From: Candidatus Rifleibacteriota bacterium
Lineage (GTDB): Bacteria > UBP17 > UBA6191 > JACPRK01
Assembly (NCBI GenBank): GCA_016213865.1
Contig: JACQZL010000016.1
Span: 1 to 6,229, forward strand
Length of the DNA: 6,229 nt
Direction of reading: 5' to 3'
The translations under genes and the position numbers were made by a program. Every line of letters starts with the position of its first letter. Position 1 is the first letter of the stretch. This document shows positions 1 to 6,229 of the stretch, in pieces. The notes below the pieces were generated by a model. It worked only from the letters and a program-made list of their open reading frames with translations, ran no database searches and had not been told where the DNA came from.

Positions 1-570
1 CTCACGAACCTCGCGCTGGCCATTCTCAAGGAGCCCTCCTTCGTGAAGAGGGTGGGGTTGCTGGCCGTCGTGGGCGGCGCGACGCACTTCCCTCCGGGGA
101 TGGAGAAGGGCACCATCTTCGTGGACTACAAATCGGAGTACAACCTCAACTGCGATCCGGATGCGGCGATGGTGGTGTTCGAATCGGGCATCCCCATCCG
201 GATGTCGGGCCTGGCGCCGGCGCTGCAAGTGACGGTTGGCCGCAAACAGTTGCCGCGATGGCGGAACTCGGGAAAGCCGGCGGGCCGGTGGATTGCGGCC
301 CGGGTGCGGGAACGGCTGGATGCGCACGGCTCGGACGAGACGCACCTGGGCGACGTGCTGGGCTGTGTGCTGGCGGTGAGACCCGAGCTGGCCCAGGTGC
401 GAACGCTGCCCCTGTCGCTGGAGATGTGGGGGCAGACGCTCAGAACGGTGATCGACCCGACCGGCAGCGGACGTGCGGTGCAGGTGGTGCTCACGGTCGA
501 GCCGCGAAAGTTCATGCCGGTGTTCCTGCGGGCGATGGACCGGGCGCTCGCGGCGTCGCCCGGGCAATGA
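1..570 (+). CDS. Nucleoside hydrolase-like protein (IUNH fold), 5'-truncated by window edge
   Basis: The reading frame is open from base 1, so the start codon lies outside the window and 189 C-terminal residues are visible. The first codons give LTNLALA, the motif that follows GP in inosine/uridine-preferring nucleoside hydrolases. Next come a VVGGA strand and SEYNLNCDPDAA, which matches the family EFN-x-x-x-DPEAA block; its Glu and Asn contact ribose in characterised enzymes. The following strand, VFESGIPIRMSGL, is also typical. Known members cleave the N-glycosidic bond of ribonucleosides for salvage. The usual C-terminal His-Asp pair is not intact: the segment reads THLGDVLGCVLAVRPEL, with Gly directly before the Asp and a His three residues before it. 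The segment before EYN lacks the usual GN. Fold assignment is fairly secure. Substrate and activity are uncertain, and the calcium-binding N-terminal Asp cluster cannot be seen. Confidence 0.8.
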   Translation, partial: LTNLALAILKEPSFVKRVGLLAVVGGATHFPPGMEKGTIFVDYKSEYNLNCDPDAAMVVFESGIPIRMSGLAPALQVTVGRKQLPRWRNSGKPAGRWIAARVRERLDAHGSDETHLGDVLGCVLAVRPELAQVRTLPLSLEMWGQTLRTVIDPTGSGRAVQVVLTVEPRKFMPVFLRAMDRALAASPGQ

Positions 571-578
571 CGCGAAAG

Positions 579-601
579 CCGGTCGGTCAGGACGCGACCG
601 G
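579..601. terminator. GC-rich inverted repeat between convergent genes, possible bidirectional terminator
   Basis: CCGGTCG (579-585) pairs perfectly with CGACCGG (595-601) around a 9-nt loop. It lies nine bases past the nucleoside hydrolase stop and 19 bases past the stop of the opposing thioredoxin-like gene. No T-run follows on either strand, so intrinsic termination is plausible but unproven. Confidence 0.4.
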
Positions 602-620
602 AGTGCGCGCCCGGGTCAGC

Positions 621-1148
621 TCACCAGCCTACTTCGGAGCCGCTGCCGGGGGCGCGGCGCTGGCCGCCAAAGCGAGGTGGGCTCGTCGGCTCGGGTGCCA
701 CGGCGCTGCTCCACTCGAGGAGCCGTTCGTAGGCCTCCGTGCCGCGCAGCCAGAGACGGCCCTGAGCATCGAAGATCTCGAAGTGGGGGAGGGCCTCCAG
801 CTTGTGCTGTCGCGCGACGGGAGAACCGAAGTCGATGCCTCGCGCCCCTGCCCGGTCGATGTCGATCGTCCGGACCACGACGTCGGCCCGGGCAGCCACG
901 AGACGTTCGAGCTTCGGAGCCATCAGGCGGCACGGTGGGCAGCGATGGCTGAAGAAGTCGAAGACGGTCAGCTTGCCGGGCACGACGTAGCCCTCGAGGT
1001 CGAGGCGTTGCCCGGGGCTGCCGATGAGGCCGATGGGGTCGGCCGCGCCGGGCCGCAGGTGCGGAAGGTCGACCGCGGGGAGAGGCCCGCCGCCAGCGGT
1101 GATGACGAGGATTGAAAGGATGAGGAGGGTTAAAATCGAACGGGTCAT
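621..1148 (-). CDS. Exported thioredoxin-fold protein with CPPC motif
   Basis: 175 residues. Residues 1-19 are a hydrophobic export signal (MTRSILTLLILSILVITAG) with no lipobox Cys. A thioredoxin-like domain follows: the strand and active site TVFDFFSHRCPPCRLMAP carries Cys70 and Cys73. A VVRTIDIDR strand, then GIDFGSPVARQ and LPHFEIFD follow, where Pro121 is the expected cis-proline and the last strand leads into a DAQG turn. The GID-x-x-SPVA-x-Q block is shared with a family of short periplasmic thioredoxin-like proteins. It probably works as a thiol-disulfide reductant or oxidant outside the cytoplasm; direction and partner are unknown. From about residue 151 there is a Pro/Gly/Arg-rich tail without visible structure. 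The ATG at 1148 is preceded on its strand by AGGAGA with 6 nt spacing. The gene is divergent from the histidine kinase and convergent with the nucleoside hydrolase. Confidence 0.85.
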   Translation of the reverse strand: MTRSILTLLILSILVITAGGGPLPAVDLPHLRPGAADPIGLIGSPGQRLDLEGYVVPGKLTVFDFFSHRCPPCRLMAPKLERLVAARADVVVRTIDIDRAGARGIDFGSPVARQHKLEALPHFEIFDAQGRLWLRGTEAYERLLEWSSAVAPEPTSPPRFGGQRRAPGSGSEVGW

Positions 1149-1184
1149 GAGAGTTCTCCTGCCTTGGTGACTCGAGGGTTGCTG

Positions 1185-1212
1185 TTTGTGATTCAGGTCA
1201 CCTGCAAGTCAA
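1185..1212 (-). promoter_or_regulatory. Candidate promoter with palindromic spacer, upstream of the exported thioredoxin-like gene
   Basis: Read on the minus strand, TTGACT (1212-1207) is a strong -35 match. After 16 nt comes CACAAA (1190-1185), a weak -10. The spacer contains CAGGTGACCTG (1204-1194), two perfect 5-bp arms around one central base. The predicted transcript start lies about 30 nt before the ATG. Position and dyad suggest a repressor or MerR-family site, but the palindrome is short and the -10 is poor. On the plus strand only a very weak match (TTGTGA at 1186, TCAAAC at 1209) was seen for the histidine kinase. Confidence 0.35.
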
Positions 1213-1321
1213 ACGCCTCGAGACGAGGAAGGTAACCGGCCAGCGTGAAGGCCGCACGCGGAGGGGTGTTACCCTCGAGCGGTCTTCCTCGTTGAAGCAG
1301 TGACGGCCAGGAGGCTTTGGA

Positions 1322-2764
1322 ATGCGAAGACGGATCATGGGCTTGAGCATCGGATTGGTGCTGCTCTTCTCGATCTCGACCGGGCTCCTCCACTTCTGGC
1401 GGATGGCTGTTCAGATGAGGATGCTGGCAGCCGAACGGCTACGTTCGATCGTGGCGACGGCCGCGGCTGGGGTCGACGGAGACGCCCACGCGGAGTTGAA
1501 TCGCTGTCTGGACAAGAACTGCCCCAACTACCGCAAGCTGGCCGGCTTTCTTCGCCAGGTTCAGAGCCAGAACGGCCTTTCGACGGAGGTCTACACGCTG
1601 GCGCGGACGGCGACCGGGACGCGATTCGTGCTGCGCACCGAACATGAATCGGACTTCGGCATGCCCTACGAACTGCGTCCGGAGATGAGGCTGGTCTTTG
1701 AACGGGGCGAGCTGGTCACGACCGGCGTCTACGAGGATCGGTGGGGCTCGTGGATGTCGGCCTACGCGCCGATCGTCGATTCCGCGGGCCACGTCGTCGC
1801 CTTGCTTGAAGCGGACTACCGGGCCGAGGAACTGTCGGCCATGGTGTTGCGCGATGTTCGGGACAACCTGCTTCTGTGGTTGCTGGGGCTGGCCTTGACC
1901 GTGGTGCTGGGGAATCGTCTGTCCCGCCAGCTCACCATGCCGCTGGCCCAGTTGACGCGGGCCGTGGACGCGACCGGCGAGGGGGAGGAACATCATCCGC
2001 TGCCCCTGGAGGCCCCGGCGGAACTGGGAATGTTGGCCCGCCGATTCCAGGCCATGCGGGAAGCGGTGGCGCAGGCGCGGGCGCGGGAACGGCTGGCGAC
2101 CGTCGGGCAGATGGCCGGGGCGATGATCCACGACCTGAGGGGCCCGCTGATGGTCGTGTCCGGGATGACGGAGCTGATCCAGGGCGAGGATTCGGCGGAG
2201 GAACGGGCTGACCTGGTGAGGCGGGTGCTTGAACAGGTCCGGCGGATCGAGGCGATGGCCCGCGATGTCCTGGAGTTTTCGCGCGGCACGTCGCACCTGG
2301 AGCTGGGCCGGTTCCGGGCGGCGGGCTTGGTGGACGGAATCGCGGAGGACGCGACACTTCTGGCCCGGCAAAAGGGCGTGCAGCTTCGCGTGGAGACGGG
2401 CTGGGACGGCGAGGTGGAGGGCGATCCGGACAAGCTGCGGCGAGTGACCTACAACCTGACGAAGAACGCCATCGAGGCGACGCCCTCGGGAAAGAGCGTC
2501 GTGCTGAAGGTGAGCGGCGGCGAGGGCCGATGGCAGATGCAGGTCTGCGACGCGGGACCGGGGCTTCCTCCGGAGGTGGCGAACCGGCTCTTCGAGGCCT
2601 TTGCCACGCACGGGAAGAAAGGCGGCACCGGCCTTGGGCTGGCCATCGTGAAGAGCATCGTCGAACGCCACTCGGGCACCGTCACTCACCGCCCCGGGCC
2701 GGAGGGCGGAGCGGTCTTCAGCGTGGACCTGCCGGTGTCGCAAGGCGAGCCCACGGTGAAGTGA
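1322..2764 (+). CDS. Membrane-bound sensor histidine kinase (extracytoplasmic sensor-HAMP-HisKA-HATPase)
   Basis: 480 residues. TM1 is about residues 6-26. Residues 28-182 form the extracytoplasmic sensor, with VYTLARTATGTRFVLRTE, a YEDRWGSWMSAYAPIVDSAG block and LLEADY, resembling Cache-like sensors of kinases and cyclases. TM2 is about 183-199, and a HAMP linker runs to about 250. The H box MIHDLRGPL carries the phospho-acceptor His270. The N box is NLTKNAIEA (378-386), G1 is DAGPGLP (410-416), the F box is LFEAF (423-427), and G2 is GGTGLGLAIVKSIVERHSG (434-452). All ATP-binding boxes look intact, so it should autophosphorylate. The ligand is unknown; Cys62 and Cys67 in the sensor (CLDKNC) could form a disulfide or bind metal. 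The ATG has AGGAGG (1309-1314) at 7 nt. No receiver gene is adjacent, so it is an orphan within this window. It ends 107 bp before the mer promoter and need not belong to that unit. Confidence 0.93.
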   Translation: MRRRIMGLSIGLVLLFSISTGLLHFWRMAVQMRMLAAERLRSIVATAAAGVDGDAHAELNRCLDKNCPNYRKLAGFLRQVQSQNGLSTEVYTLARTATGTRFVLRTEHESDFGMPYELRPEMRLVFERGELVTTGVYEDRWGSWMSAYAPIVDSAGHVVALLEADYRAEELSAMVLRDVRDNLLLWLLGLALTVVLGNRLSRQLTMPLAQLTRAVDATGEGEEHHPLPLEAPAELGMLARRFQAMREAVAQARARERLATVGQMAGAMIHDLRGPLMVVSGMTELIQGEDSAEERADLVRRVLEQVRRIEAMARDVLEFSRGTSHLELGRFRAAGLVDGIAEDATLLARQKGVQLRVETGWDGEVEGDPDKLRRVTYNLTKNAIEATPSGKSVVLKVSGGEGRWQMQVCDAGPGLPPEVANRLFEAFATHGKKGGTGLGLAIVKSIVERHSGTVTHRPGPEGGAVFSVDLPVSQGEPTVK

Positions 2765-2776
2765 ACGCTGGAGCCT

Positions 2777-2836
2777 GTGAGAGCGCGCTCACGCTCGGCT
2801 GGTGAGGCCGCACTCATCGGAGGCCCGCAAGGGGCC
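2777..2836 (+). terminator. Two small inverted repeats after the histidine kinase, weak terminator candidates
   Basis: An imperfect dyad GTGAGAGCGCGCTCAC (2777-2792) has the perfect 10-bp palindrome GAGCGCGCTC at its core. A second stem pairs GGCCC (2822-2826) with GGGCC (2832-2836) around GCAAG. Neither is followed by a T-run. They sit between the kinase stop and the mer promoter, where a terminator would insulate the two units. Function is inferred from position only. Confidence 0.3.
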
Positions 2837-2871
2837 CCGTCTTGCCCGACAAAAATAGTCTGGGTAACAAG

Positions 2872-2902
2872 TTGACTCGGTACCTGGGTACAAGCCGTAT
2901 GT
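2872..2902 (+). promoter_or_regulatory. MerR-type mercury promoter/operator (19-bp spacer with GTAC-N4-GTAC dyad)
   Basis: TTGACT (2872-2877) is a near-consensus -35. A 19-bp spacer leads to GTATGT (2897-2902) as -10; a TATGTG reading would give 20 bp. Over-long spacers are the hallmark of promoters that MerR-family activators untwist. Inside the spacer, GTAC at 2880-2883 and GTAC at 2888-2891 are separated by 4 bp, and the first begins 2 bp after the -35. From memory this is the same geometry as the Tn501/Tn21 mer operator (TTGACT, two bases, GTAC-N4-GTAC). The promoter reads straight into merR, so MerR probably controls its own gene and the three downstream genes, as in mer operons where merR is promoter-proximal. 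An A-rich stretch (2851-2856) lies upstream of the -35. Confidence 0.8.
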
Positions 2903-2921
2903 GAAAGATGAGATGACCGAA

Positions 2922-3338
2922 ATGAACCTCGAAACGCTCACCTCGGGACAGGTCGCGAGGCAAGCTGGGGTGAACCGGCAGACGCTCAGATACTACGAAC
3001 GCCGGGGCTTGTTGCCGTGTCCGCCACGCCGGTGCGGAGGCTACCGCCAGTATCCGGACGAGGCCGTGCTGGTGCTCCGATTCGTGAAGCGAGCTAAGGG
3101 GCTGGGGTTCACCCTGGAGCAGATCCTCGACCTGCTGCGGTTGAGGTCCGATCGGCGTGCGAACTGCGCCGCGGTGCGCGAGCGTGCTCGCGAGAAAATC
3201 GAGGACATCCAGCGAAGGTTACAAGATCTCGAGGCGATGCGGCAGGCCTTGAAGCTGCTTGTCGAGACATGCGGGAACGACGGTTCGGCCCGGGATTGCC
3301 CAATCCTGGAGGCTCTCGAGAGCCGAGACCACGAGTGA
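2922..3338 (+). CDS. merR: Mercury-responsive MerR-family transcriptional regulator
   Basis: 138 residues from ATG 2922. The N-terminal winged helix-turn-helix reads SGQVARQAGVNRQTLRYYER and continues RGLLP, the MerR-family signature. A coiled-coil dimer helix follows. The Hg(II) site is diagnostic: Cys82 (ANCAAV), Cys117 (VETCGN) and Cys126 (RDCPIL). Their spacings of 35 and 9 residues equal those of Tn501 MerR, where these cysteines coordinate Hg(II) across the dimer. CueR, ZntR and SoxR have different ligand patterns, so an Hg(II) or closely related thiophilic-metal sensor is the best call. Two extra cysteines lie in the wing. Starts at GTG 2901 and ATG 2913 are in frame, but GTG 2901 overlaps the predicted -10 and a transcript would begin near 2909. 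ATG 2922 has a GAG 9 nt upstream and leaves a very short leader. It is the first gene of a four-gene unit. Confidence 0.92.
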   Translation: MNLETLTSGQVARQAGVNRQTLRYYERRGLLPCPPRRCGGYRQYPDEAVLVLRFVKRAKGLGFTLEQILDLLRLRSDRRANCAAVRERAREKIEDIQRRLQDLEAMRQALKLLVETCGNDGSARDCPILEALESRDHE

Positions 3339-3349
3339 GGAGGCTGACC

Positions 3350-3697
3350 ATGAAGATGAAGATCGAGGTGTTCACGGCGGGTTGCGGGTTCTGCGAACCC
3401 GTCGTGGAACAGGCAAGACAGATTGCACGCCAGAATTGCGAGCTCCTGGTGCGGGATGTGCGCTCGAATCCGGAGGCGCTTGCTCGGGCAACCGAGCTGG
3501 GCGTCCAGCGCGTGCCGGCGGTGGCGATCGACGGACGGTTGGCCCCCTGTTGCTCGGCAACCTGGTCGGTCGAGGAAGCTCTCCGAGAGGCAGGGGTCGG
3601 TGAACCACGATGCCCCCGGGTTGTTGCGAAGCAGCAGGGGCGAGAAGATGTCCGGACTGCGGGGCCCAAGGCCATCGGGTCGACGCCGAGACCGTGA
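3350..3697 (+). CDS. Small cytoplasmic thioredoxin/glutaredoxin-fold protein with CGFC and CC motifs
   Basis: 115 residues, no signal peptide. The start MKMKIEVFTAGCGFCEP places a CxxC (Cys12, Cys15) directly after the first strand, as in small glutaredoxin/thioredoxin folds. A second half follows with GVQRVPAVAIDG (cis-Pro56) and then APCCSA with vicinal Cys67-Cys68. Two thiol pairs facing each other across a thioredoxin fold suit binding or relaying a soft metal, or reducing metal-thiolate adducts. The recognisable domain ends near residue 84; residues 85-115 form a charged tail encoded where the next gene overlaps. The ATG is 11 nt past the merR stop, with AGGAGG (3338-3343) at 6 nt, and the SD overlaps that stop. 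It is co-transcribed with merR. Exact biochemical role is unknown; a link to mercury handling is inferred from operon membership and cysteines. Confidence 0.82.
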   Translation: MKMKIEVFTAGCGFCEPVVEQARQIARQNCELLVRDVRSNPEALARATELGVQRVPAVAIDGRLAPCCSATWSVEEALREAGVGEPRCPRVVAKQQGREDVRTAGPKAIGSTPRP

Positions 3698-4062
3698 GGG
3701 CGTTGACCGTGGAGCGGGTCCTGGCCGCGATGCCGCAAGGTGAACTGGGAATTTGCCTGTCGCCCTCCTGCGACACGGTCTACTTCTCGCAGCAGTTGGA
3801 CAGCCCGTGGGTTGCGCGGCGCGAAGATGTGACAGTTCGCGTGTTTCGGAAGGAGCAAGCTCCGGGTCGGCTGGTCTGCTATTGCTTTGGGCACACGGTG
3901 GCGTCGATCCGCGAGGAAGTCCTCAGAACCAGGAACAGCGGCATCGAGGAGGAGCTCCGCCGGATGGTCGCGGACCGCCGCTGCTCGTGCAAGACGACGA
4001 ACCCGCAAGGGACCTGCTGCCTGGGAGATGTCCGCCGCGTGGTCGAGGAGGTGAAGAGGTGA
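3610..4062 (+). CDS. CopZ N-domain-like iron-sulfur/zinc metallochaperone
   Basis: 150 residues, 11 cysteines: CC at 5-6, CPDCG at 14-18, Cys49 and Cys54, CYC at 90-92, CSC at 125-127 and CC at 136-137. The order matches the N-terminal domain of Archaeoglobus CopZ and stand-alone 'putative iron-sulfur cluster-binding metallochaperone' proteins. These have an N-terminal zinc-ribbon-like part, then CD-x-VYF and a VCYCFGHTV BFD-like [2Fe-2S] segment with a late C-x-C and NPQGTCCLGDV. No C-terminal heavy-metal-associated (HMA) domain with GMTCxxC is present, so it is a free-standing module. Probable role: binding a thiophilic metal or electron supply in the cytoplasm; metal identity is not settled. 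An in-frame TGA at 3601-3603 forces the start to ATG 3610. It has no convincing SD, so translation probably couples to the upstream gene, whose frame it overlaps by 88 nt. Confidence 0.85.
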   Translation: MPPGCCEAAGARRCPDCGAQGHRVDAETVRALTVERVLAAMPQGELGICLSPSCDTVYFSQQLDSPWVARREDVTVRVFRKEQAPGRLVCYCFGHTVASIREEVLRTRNSGIEEELRRMVADRRCSCKTTNPQGTCCLGDVRRVVEEVKR

Positions 4063-4505
4063 AGTCGACTGGGCGGTCTATCAACGCCTCATCGGGTCCG
4101 CTGGGTGCTTTCGGGTGGTTGGCGGCCGGCGAGCTCGCGGTTGCCGGCGCAGCCTCGTGCTGTTGGCTGCCGGCAATGGCGGCAGCTCTGGGGTTGGGTA
4201 GCGCCGGCGCCGCCCTGGCCTCCTTCGGAGCAGGCTCGTACCCGCTCGGATTCGCCGTCGTGGCGCTGGCGCTGGCCGGCCGCTGGTGGTGGCGTTTGAG
4301 GCACTCAGGGCCGGAAGAACCGTGCTGTGCGACAGGTCGAGGTCAGACGCGCGGGAAGAAATCCCGCTGGCCCTGGTACGCCGCGGGCTTGCTGGCCGGC
4401 GCCGCCGTGGCCTTGTCCGCGGTCAGTGAAATCCGCGGGAGCGAAACGGGAGTGGCCTCGACGTCCGCATTGCTCGACAAGGCTCCGGCTCGGTGCTGCA
4501 GGTAG
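4059..4505 (+). CDS. merT: MerT-like mercuric ion transporter
   Basis: 148 residues with three predicted membrane helices: about 17-38, 44-75 (with a break near 58-62) and 104-122. Vicinal Cys34-Cys35 (ASCCWLP) sits in the first helix, as in MerT. A second pair, Cys89-Cys90 (EEPCCATG), is in the loop between helices 2 and 3, where MerT carries its cytoplasmic cysteines. MerT moves Hg(II) inward through the inner membrane from the first pair to the second. The protein is longer than a typical MerT (about 116 residues) and has a 26-residue tail ending in Cys146-Cys147-Arg, which the usual topology would place outside the cytoplasm. The GTG start overlaps the previous stop as GTGA and has AGGAGG (4046-4051) at 7 nt. 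It is the last gene of the unit. Bases 4506-4638, up to the convergent redoxin gene, show no gene, clear hairpin or T-run. Confidence 0.8.
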   Translation: MKSTGRSINASSGPLGAFGWLAAGELAVAGAASCCWLPAMAAALGLGSAGAALASFGAGSYPLGFAVVALALAGRWWWRLRHSGPEEPCCATGRGQTRGKKSRWPWYAAGLLAGAAVALSAVSEIRGSETGVASTSALLDKAPARCCR

Positions 4506-4638
4506 GTGCGTACCCCAAGAGCGCTGAGAACTCGGTGCTGGCGTGCCTTCACCCTGGCTGTCCGCTGTTTGTCATGCCGCCGAGACGCGACTCACGGCCT
4601 ATCGGTGGCGGCTGCGGCAGCGACGTGAACGCCGGCAC

Positions 4639-5439
4639 TCATCGCCCCGCCGGGACCTTCGCGGGCAGCCTCAGCTTGGCGAGGGCCGCCAGGATGGCCT
4701 CGGGCTCGAGGCGCCTGGTGTAGTCGGGGTCGACCGACGCCAGGGCCACGAGCCCCTGGCGGTCGAGCACGAAGGTGCCCGGGACCGGCAGTTCCCACTT
4801 GCCGTCGGCGTTGAACTTCTCGAGCGTGAGGCCGAAGCCCCGGTAGAGTTCCTCGAGTTTCGGGGGAACCCGGAAGGCCAGCCCGAACGAGCGAGCGACT
4901 CGATTGCCAGCGTCGGACAGCACCTCGAACTCGAGCTTCATGGTCTGCACCGATTCCTTGACGTAGTCGGGCTTTTCAGGTGAAATCGCCACCAGCGAGG
5001 CCCCGGCCTCGCGCAGTCTGGGTAGGGCCTCCTGAAGGGCCGCGAGCTGGGCGTTGCAGTACGGGCACCAGTGGCCGCGGTAGAAAACGAGGACCACGGG
5101 CCCGCGGGCCAGCAACTCCCGGAGCTGCACCGACTTGCCCTCGGAGTTGGGCAGGGTGAAGTCGGGAGCTCGAGCGCCGGGCTTGAGACTGTGCTCGAGC
5201 AGCCCGGAGCGCGTCAGGTCGCGAAGCGCCGTCTCGACGATCGCTCGCTTCTCGGGGCTGGCCTTCCGGCCTGAGGCTGCGCGCATCGCGGCCAGCTTAC
5301 GTTCCAGCGGACCCGGCCCCGGCGGCTTGGCCCCCGGCTCGGCGAGAGCGGCGCCGGTCAGGAAGGCGCTGGCGAGCAGCGCCACCGGGAGCGAGCGAGA
5401 GATCCGGCGAGAATCGAACAGGTGAGTGAGTGCGAACAA
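4639..5439 (-). CDS. Exported peroxiredoxin-like (AhpC/TSA-redoxin) protein with CPYC motif
   Basis: 266 residues from TTG 5439. The N-terminus has Arg-rich residues (RRISR), a hydrophobic stretch LPVALLASAFLTGAALA and a likely cleavage after ALA-33. A linker helix (45-85) precedes the redoxin domain: KPGARAPDFTLPNSEGK, then VVLVFYRGHWCPYCNAQL with Cys125 and Cys128, VAISPEKPDYV, FEVLSDAGNRVARSFG, and a late VPGTFVLDRQG with a likely cis-Pro. This layout is that of peroxiredoxin-like family proteins, which reduce peroxides or exchange thiols; the CxxC allows either a resolving Cys or a disulfide reductase role. The TTG has a perfect AAGGAGG 6 nt upstream, while the longer GTG start (5496) has none and would put 20 extra residues before the signal. 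It is downstream of the anti-sigma-like gene on the same strand, so it may share its transcript, and is convergent with merT. Confidence 0.85.
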   Translation of the reverse strand: MFALTHLFDSRRISRSLPVALLASAFLTGAALAEPGAKPPGPGPLERKLAAMRAASGRKASPEKRAIVETALRDLTRSGLLEHSLKPGARAPDFTLPNSEGKSVQLRELLARGPVVLVFYRGHWCPYCNAQLAALQEALPRLREAGASLVAISPEKPDYVKESVQTMKLEFEVLSDAGNRVARSFGLAFRVPPKLEELYRGFGLTLEKFNADGKWELPVPGTFVLDRQGLVALASVDPDYTRRLEPEAILAALAKLRLPAKVPAGR

Positions 5440-5445
5440 GGCAAG

Positions 5446-5452
5446 CCTCCTT
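5446..5452 (-). promoter_or_regulatory. Perfect Shine-Dalgarno (AAGGAGG) that decides a TTG start
   Basis: On the minus strand AAGGAGG (5452-5446) stands 6 nt before TTG (5439-5437), which is in frame with the redoxin gene. No ATG lies in frame between 5496 and the signal peptide core. The signal peptide reads normally from this TTG. This favours TTG over the upstream GTG at 5496. Confidence 0.7.
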
Positions 5453-5534
5453 GGAGTGTTGCGGGCGCGGTGAACGGCGTCGTCAGGGCCCCGCACGGCG
5501 GCCGGAATCTCAGGCTGCCAGCACCGGCTGCAGG

Positions 5535-5660
5535 CGGGTCATGAGCCGGACGGCGAACCAGGCGGCCAAGGCGGTTCCCGTGCCCCAGCTCGCGAACGGG
5601 TCATGAGCCGGACGGCGAACCAGGCGGCCAAGGCGGTTCCCGTGCCCCAGCTCGCGAACG
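5535..5660. repeat. Exact 62-bp tandem duplication
   Basis: Bases 5535-5596 are repeated immediately as 5597-5658, and identity runs two bases further to 5660, so the match is 64 bp at a period of 62. The copies show no differences. Each unit runs from CGGGTCATGAG to CTCGCGAA. The unit is not a multiple of three, so it changes the reading frame of the gene that contains it. Perfect identity means a recent event or an assembly/sequencing error. Confidence 0.95.
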
Positions 5661-6213
5661 TGAGCGGGTCGGGCGGGAGGATGTGCAGGGCCGGCACGCC
5701 CAGGGCGACGAGCGCGCCGAACAGGGTTGCGGCCGCGCGACGCCGGCTCGGCTCCCAGGAGCGGGCCAGCGACGAGACCGTCAGGTCCGCCACCAGCAGC
5801 GGCATCATCCCCATCATTGCGGCGGTCAGGGTGTGAGCGAAGACGGCGACGTACTGCCCGAAGAGAGGCTTGATCACCCCGGCAAAGAAGTGGCAGACGA
5901 TCGGAATGGGGCAGACGACGCCGAGCACGGTCATCAAGGCCAGGGCGAGCAACGTCTCGATCGCCACGTGCCAGGGCGAGCTCGGCCCTCGTTCTTCGGC
6001 GAGCGAAGCCTTGATGCCGCGGAGGAGCACGTCGGGCACCTCCTCCTCCGGCAGCACGGCCATCTGGCTCCACACCTCGCGAAGCGAACGCTCGACGGCG
6101 AGGCACCGATCGCACCCGGCCAGATGGGCTTCGACCTGGGCACTGTCTTCCGGAGCGAGGTTGCCGCTCACGTAGGCGGCGAGCTCAGGTCCCAGGTCGT
6201 CGCAGGCTTGCAT
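5539..6213 (-). CDS. zf-HC2 anti-sigma-like membrane protein, C-terminus altered by tandem duplication
   Basis: 224 residues as read. The N-terminal zinc-binding anti-sigma domain has Cys4, then His30-x3-Cys34-x2-Cys37 (HLAGCDRC), the ZAS/zf-HC2 pattern of factors that hold ECF sigma factors. Membrane helices follow at about 83-112, 121-146, 160-179 and 187-203. Cys101 and Cys107 flank the first helix (CPIPIVC). ATG 6213 has AAGGAGA about 8 nt upstream. The partner sigma factor would be expected just beyond the window edge, upstream on this strand, but is not visible. After LMTR-206 the frame passes into the second copy of a 62-bp repeat and ends in a Pro/Ser-rich stretch, SRAGAREPPWPPGSPSGS. 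Without the duplication it would read LMTR-LQPVLAA and stop at 5510 (213 residues). The anti-sigma role is inferred from the N-terminal motif and position. Confidence 0.8.
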   Translation of the reverse strand: MQACDDLGPELAAYVSGNLAPEDSAQVEAHLAGCDRCLAVERSLREVWSQMAVLPEEEVPDVLLRGIKASLAEERGPSSPWHVAIETLLALALMTVLGVVCPIPIVCHFFAGVIKPLFGQYVAVFAHTLTAAMMGMMPLLVADLTVSSLARSWEPSRRRAAATLFGALVALGVPALHILPPDPLTFASWGTGTALAAWFAVRLMTRSRAGAREPPWPPGSPSGS

Positions 6214-6229
6214 GGGTCTTCTCCTTGCT

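Follow-up and report, generated by a model that had tools for sequence, protein, structure and literature searches.

How an operon that appears to import Hg(II) could serve a cell without a mercuric reductase is the question raised by a 6,229-nucleotide stretch of Candidatus Rifleibacteriota DNA (assembly GCA_016213865.1, contig JACQZL010000016.1, positions 1 to 6,229), referred to here as the window. An initial annotation described a mer promoter and a tight, MerR-led four-gene unit ending in MerT, and these parts were all recovered. We read them as a Hg(II)-responsive import-and-capture operon, with a probability of about 0.6, where the identity of the metal, the direction of transport and the hand-over steps are what we infer from sequence comparison. 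The paradox of a MerT without MerA is a recurrent variant and not a unique module, because the same partners also form part of a complete mercury operon in Geobacter argillaceus; it is the exact combination of genes that is rare, and not its core.

Operon layout and promoter

The unit occupies positions 2872-4505 of the plus strand, with short gaps or overlaps between the genes:

2872-2903, plus strand: MerR-type promoter/operator, with a TTGAC -35 box, a 20-bp spacer holding a GTAC-N4-GTAC dyad and a weak -10 box
2922-3338, plus strand: gene for a merR-like activator, the open reading frame being listed from 2901
3350-3697, plus strand: gene for a mini-thioredoxin (trx), with a CGFC motif, a later CC pair and a C-terminal extension overlapping copZ
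3610-4062, plus strand: gene (copZ) for a 150-aa CopZ-type Zn/[2Fe-2S] protein that carries an additional CC pair in its N-terminal part
4059-4505, plus strand: gene for a MerT-like putative importer, with a GTG start inside the overlap with the copZ stop

The listed merR start at 2901 falls within the -10 box, so that the ATG at 2913 or 2922 is the likelier one. The trx frame extends to 3697 and thereby overlaps copZ by 88 nt, and copZ overlaps the MerT-like gene by 4 nt (4059-4062).

The pattern TTGACT-N2-GTAC-N4-GTAC, at 2872-2891, occurs once in the window and in none of 200 shuffles. With a 32-base matrix built from the MerR promoters of 12 relatives, leaving the window out, 2872-2903 is the top-ranked site at 25.3 bits, followed by a runner-up at 4.8 bits, while the best scores of 60 shuffled windows average 5.3 and reach 18.4 at most. 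The spacer measures 20 bp by the matrix, a reading of 19 also being possible, and the element qualifies as the operator/promoter of a mer operon. The position matrix replaced an earlier dyad score, which barely told real from shuffled sequence; a search with the exact GTACNNNNGTAC was likewise abandoned as too narrow, matching 9 of 94 loci, few of them at merR. Neither MerA nor MerP was matched among the nine window proteins scanned against Pfam and NCBIfam (HMA standing for MerP), in agreement with the initial annotation of a MerT lacking merA and merP.

The MerR-type regulator

The regulator matches PF13411 and PF09278 above cut-off, and its best NCBIfam model is that of mercury MerR (TIGR02051), yet it remains under the cut-off of that model (127.7 of 150.85 bits). 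Its C89, C124 and C133, numbered from 2901, align with C82, C117 and C126 of Tn21 MerR, completing the cysteine triad, which is also full in 34 of the 46 other MerR open reading frames found by profile (the window and re-fetched copies left out). According to a part of PMC5027573, MerR of Tn501 binds Hg via Cys82, Cys117 and Cys126, with CPLI following at the last of them; the last cysteine of the window MerR stands in the context CPIL.

In a tree of 52 MerRs, the window MerR pairs with a MerR from Gordonia (97/83) whose neighbouring gene encodes an alkylmercury lyase, and its next neighbour is a Pirellulales MerR located beside MerA (92/68; L033). The deeper forks are weak, and the PbrR, ZntR and CueR references, from which the window MerR stands apart, lie on long branches. 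The good plasmid matches also include MerRs adjoining alkylmercury lyase genes, and the closest MerR by identity among the fetched loci (54.5%) belongs to the merA-merB operon of Geobacter argillaceus. The earlier proposal of a Hg-type MerR operon stays the likeliest reading.

The MerT-like protein and its cytosolic partners

The MerT-like protein does not reach the Pfam gathering score of PF02411 (15.6 of 32.9 bits) and, as a lone query, retrieved nothing at E 0.001 among 6191 candidates. A MerT profile seeded from two Pfam-confirmed relatives, with the window left out, found it at 34.2 bits (E 9e-9 for 5900 sequences). In its predicted first transmembrane helix, the CC-x2-P signature formed by C34, C35 and P38 is invariant in 23 aligned rows, and the loop CC pair, C89/C90, is present in at least 90% of them, so that both the membrane pair and the loop cysteines typical of these transporters are in place. 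Profile and signature together point to a predicted Hg(II) transporter of the MerT/C/F/E type. Its C-terminal tail ends in a further CC pair.

The CopZ-type protein matches PF18423 above cut-off and NF047645 at 100.1 of 100 bits, and by sequence its solved relative is PDB 2HU9 (E 3e-12, or 2e-26 using an alignment), with whose cysteines its own align. C14, C90, C92, C127, C136 and C137 are invariant in 36 alignment rows and C17, C49 and C54 are kept in at least 90%, as would be expected of a zf_CopZ domain with Fe-S cysteines; the structure model has a pLDDT of 91. The mini-thioredoxin, scanned on 3350-3625, matches PF13192 above cut-off, and relatives of it were found in four other loci (L012, L025, L035 and L004). 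As judged from their sequences, both cysteine-rich cytosolic proteins are plausible metal acceptors, as had been supposed.

Neighbourhoods of CopZ relatives

When 84,980 species genomes were scanned with the CopZ alignment, at least 596 pattern matches were obtained, of which at least 562 were confirmed, and the following counts refer to the best 80 CopZ-like loci among these confirmed relatives, located in 78 genomes. In 47 of the 80 loci (45 of the 78 genomes), MerT either is fused to copZ or shares its strand at a distance of no more than 2 kb. By record titles and tree taxon labels these 47 span about ten phyla, namely Acidobacteriota, Planctomycetota, Thermodesulfobacteriota, Myxococcota, Wallbacteria, Omnitrophota, Elusimicrobiota, Chloroflexota and Neomarinimicrobiota, with Verrucomicrobiota as the tenth, to which we take the order name Limisphaerales to belong. 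A merR is found within 2.5 kb of copZ in 39/80 loci. CopZ-MerT fusions account for 19 loci, all 19 of which also match the MerP profile, and the four fusions scanned with Pfam (L028, L041, L014 and a plasmid gene in L002) each contain CopZ, MerT and HMA. The last of these (L002 4965-6200, record CP036351.1) is annotated as 'merA: Mercuric reductase' but is a CopZ-MerT-HMA fusion with no reductase domain by Pfam.

The MerR-type operator follows the same association, as sites of at least 17 bits occur within 2.5 kb of copZ in 31/47 MerT-linked loci versus 3/33 others (Fisher p 2e-7). The 12 sites of the matrix were hand-picked and 11 of them lie within the 80 loci, all among the 31 positives, although no locus was scored with a matrix containing its own site; without these 11 loci the proportions are 20/36 versus 3/33, and 19/35 when L065, whose 32-base site is identical to that of L083, is dropped too.

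The expectation that copZ homologues would keep a conserved neighbourhood held for their link to MerR and MerT, in most cases with no MerA detected, and failed for the order with trx, which is near copZ in 3/80 loci by a profile seeded from the window alone that may miss distant trx. The proposed merR-trx-copZ-merT order as a conserved self-contained module was not borne out, since it was seen again only in Geobacter argillaceus, there with an intervening merC and with merP, merB and merA downstream.

A Planctomycetota genome (G033) holds merR, a CopZ-MerT-MerP fusion and MerB close together (L125 2462-5699, on the contig of L041), with no MerA over cut-off in that genome. MerB was detected in 4 of 46 genomes searched (the 45 MerT-linked ones and G034), and in G006 and G033 it lies on the same contig, near the module; part of PMC8261052 calls MerB without MerA poorly understood. 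A role of the module as feeder of mercury methylation was rejected, as HgcA was over cut-off in 0/46 of these genomes and reached E 1e-10 in 2/46.

MerA in related genomes

MerA exceeds the TIGR02053 cut-off in 8 of the 78 genomes (6/50 and 2/29 from two scans with one genome in common) and in 5 of the 45 MerT-linked ones. A looser count, which adds matches reaching within three positions of the profile end and in-locus pieces with a CVNxGC motif or an SCC tail, gives at least 14/78 and at least 8/45, both being lower bounds, with one of the scans run at E 1e-100. Many of these genomes are drafts and some loci stop at contig ends, so that a failure to detect MerA does not prove its absence. 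Inside the loci, MerA-like genes or fragments were seen in 8/80, six of these loci being MerT-linked. The initial annotation had named linkage of merA or merP in relatives as evidence against a distinct unit, and such linkage exists in part, being infrequent for MerA (6/47 MerT-linked loci) and common for a MerP-type HMA stretch near or fused to copZ (40/47).

A separate draw of 246 Planctomycetota genomes, taken evenly, gave a MerT match at E 0.001 in 34 genomes (30 over cut-off) at 38 places, and CopZ was sought in these 34 only; five of them, all carrying CopZ, also belong to the first set. CopZ was matched in 23 (22 over cut-off), with MerT beside it, and 27 of the 38 MerT places have CopZ no more than 2 kb away. 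Four of the 34 genomes exceeded the MerA cut-off, two of them belonging to the 23 with CopZ-MerT, where merA lies at a distance of about 2 kb or less in both, and two to the 11 without it (Fisher p 0.58). The absence of MerA was therefore rejected as a mark of CopZ in this phylum, where MerT without detected MerA is common with or without CopZ, as the two proportions do not differ significantly.

Comparison with known systems

The window resembles the mer operons of the Tn21 and pMOL30 type in the MerR cysteine triad, the MerR-type promoter and MerT, and differs in that no merP, merB or merA was found in it and in the position of merR, which is divergent in Tn21 and pMOL30 and is here the first gene of the unit. 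The operon of Geobacter argillaceus (L012), ordered merR-merC-trx-copZ-merT-merP-merB-merA, contains trx and copZ in the order of the window. Therefore, these two genes also serve a complete mercury operon, and the window set is best regarded as a shortened or MerA-less form.

The CopZ-type protein shares the Zn and [2Fe-2S] cysteine pattern of its family (NF047645; 2HU9; the Csac_0668 family NF045877), with a predicted fold modelled at high confidence. CopZ of Archaeoglobus, whose N-terminal domain is the protein solved as 2HU9, is a copper protein with a C-terminal copper domain; the window protein, in contrast, has no HMA domain attached and is linked to MerR and MerT. The same two kinds of domains as in the window genes are joined in NF045683, a MerT/CopZ fusion-like heavy metal transport selenoprotein, whereas in the window the genes are separate, without an in-frame TGA, and MerT scores weakly against this model (12.3 of 375 bits). 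A Pseudomonas plasmid carries merR-merT-merP-GDCCVxC beside a Tn3-family transposase (L134 3056-4387), thus also combining MerT with a small cysteine-rich (seleno)protein, and no merA is annotated nearby; it differs from the window in its cysteine-rich partner, in the presence of MerP and in its divergent merR. A literature search, from which most subscription journals were excluded, found no title or abstract describing a MerR-MerT-CopZ module. CopZ-family and MerT selenoproteins are listed in parts of two reviews (PMC9312934, PMC13188914), and these listings, with the family name of NF045683, indicate that a MerT/CopZ association is known to annotators.

The best syntenic relative is a Candidatus Wallbacteria contig (L028/L124), which shares with the window a nucleoside hydrolase (70% identity), a TlpA-like protein (53%), a histidine kinase (60% and 48%, two copies) and a peroxiredoxin (55-62%, two pieces), all lying around the gene of a CsoR-type repressor and a CopZ-MerT-MerP fusion. 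From these shared genes, the window probably stems from a lineage related to that genome.

Neighbouring genes

A C-x4-C motif is common to the sensor region of the histidine kinase in the window (1322-2764) and of its copies in two Wallbacteria-family genomes (L123 11734-13188; L124 6783-8225 and 13721-15193), and in one of these (L124) the two copies flank the CopZ-MerT-MerP gene; this kinase may be a redox or metal sensor. The 3' side of the MerT-like gene contains:

4639-5496, minus strand: convergent AhpC/TSA-family gene

Further on, a perfect 62-nt tandem duplication (5535-5658) lies in the 3' part of a zf-HC2 anti-sigma-like gene (5539-6213, minus strand). As 62 nt is not a multiple of three, it either alters the C-terminus of that protein or is an assembly slip.

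Proposed mode of action

In the import-and-capture operon proposed here, Hg(II) would turn the MerR bound at 2872-2903 into an activator, and the cysteine pairs of MerT would then carry Hg(II) across the inner membrane. The CopZ-type protein would be the cytosolic acceptor of Hg(II) from MerT, occupying the place that the N-terminal capture domain of MerA has in classical operons, while the mini-thioredoxin would keep the thiols reduced or take the metal on. As no MerA was found in the window, the metal would be held and then reach the thiol pool, or else a reductase encoded in another place. Relatives in which [CopZ]-[MerT]-[MerP] form one polypeptide have a domain order that, assuming the usual topology of MerT, fits a single relay, with MerP outside, MerT in the membrane and CopZ inside. 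The C-terminal CC pair of the window MerT could stand in for MerP.

Alternative explanations

Several observations weigh against this reading. The CueR model follows TIGR02051 closely on the window MerR, at 122.5 bits, and in the alignment with Tn21 MerR PbrR (Pb/Cd) and ZntR (Zn) have the full cysteine triad and CueR two of its cysteines, so that the triad alone does not mean Hg. A MerR annotated as Hg(II)-responsive, 51.5% identical to that of the window, precedes a heavy-metal P-type ATPase gene (L128 5001-7882). The structure model of MerT, with three long helices, is weak (pLDDT 65, pTM 0.31), 33 of the 80 CopZ loci lack a MerT at this 2-kb range, and the extra CC pair, tried as a mark of MerT-linked CopZ, was rejected, being present in 42/47 MerT-linked and 25/33 other loci. 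Furthermore, in the syntenic relative it is the CsoR-type gene, not MerR, that directly precedes CopZ-MerT-MerP (L028 5421-7197), and such differing regulators at similar loci count against a simple Hg-only story.

Some of these points would suit a module for another soft metal (Cu, Zn, Cd or Pb), or for several, with a MerT that is not chiefly a Hg importer. The sharing of the triad with PbrR and ZntR, the CsoR-type gene and the copper-binding nature of Archaeoglobus CopZ speak for it, as do the CopZ-like genes that adjoin P-type ATPase genes in L006, the P-type ATPase-sized HMA proteins within 4 kb of copZ in 3/80 loci, and the resemblance of some operators to Zn/Pb-type sites. We consider it improbable, as relatives are linked to MerA, MerB, MerC and MerP and the window MerR groups with MerB- and MerA-linked MerRs rather than with PbrR, ZntR and CueR, long as the branches of the latter are. 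Somewhat less improbable, though still doubtful, is a degenerate or split classical mer system, either deprived of merP and merA or supplying a MerA encoded elsewhere in the genome. The additional merP, merB and merA of Geobacter argillaceus and the MerA-like genes or fragments in MerT-linked loci are compatible with it, and pMR68, as a part of PMC3737084 describes, carries a merT2-merP2 cluster of its own next to a complete mer operon. However, 40/45 MerT-linked genomes and 21/23 Planctomycetota CopZ-MerT genomes, many of them drafts, have no MerA over cut-off, making the MerA-less state look usual, and the same applies to all three genomes of the family of the syntenic relative, albeit CopZ is present in only one of them.

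It could also be imagined that the CopZ-type protein, which would be a [2Fe-2S] protein, itself turns Hg(II) to Hg(0) independently of MerA, with the mini-thioredoxin or ferredoxins recharging it. The cysteines aligning with 2HU9 are kept, genomes in which no MerA exceeds the cut-off have CopZ adjoining MerT or fused with it, and part of PMC12282025 reports anaerobic Hg(II) reduction without known genes and proposes thiol-redox proteins. Nevertheless, this is very unlikely, because a one-electron cluster would be an unusual two-electron reductant and the same protein also occurs in operons having MerA.

Implications

A MerT without MerA looks self-harming, and the recurrent MerR-controlled MerT-CopZ core names a concrete candidate acceptor for the metal. 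It also suggests that surveys scored by MerA alone can miss mercury-responsive genomes. The genetic determinants of anaerobic Hg(II) reducers have reportedly not been found, as stated in a section of PMC12282025. A speculative extension, which we hold with little confidence, is that MerR-controlled MerT-CopZ relays, with or without MerP and fused or split, constitute a widespread MerA-independent mercury route in about ten phyla, where an Fe-S/thiol acceptor would detoxify Hg(II) by reduction or stable capture. If so, these relays would be a genetic determinant, so far missing, by which organisms that lack MerA handle Hg(II).

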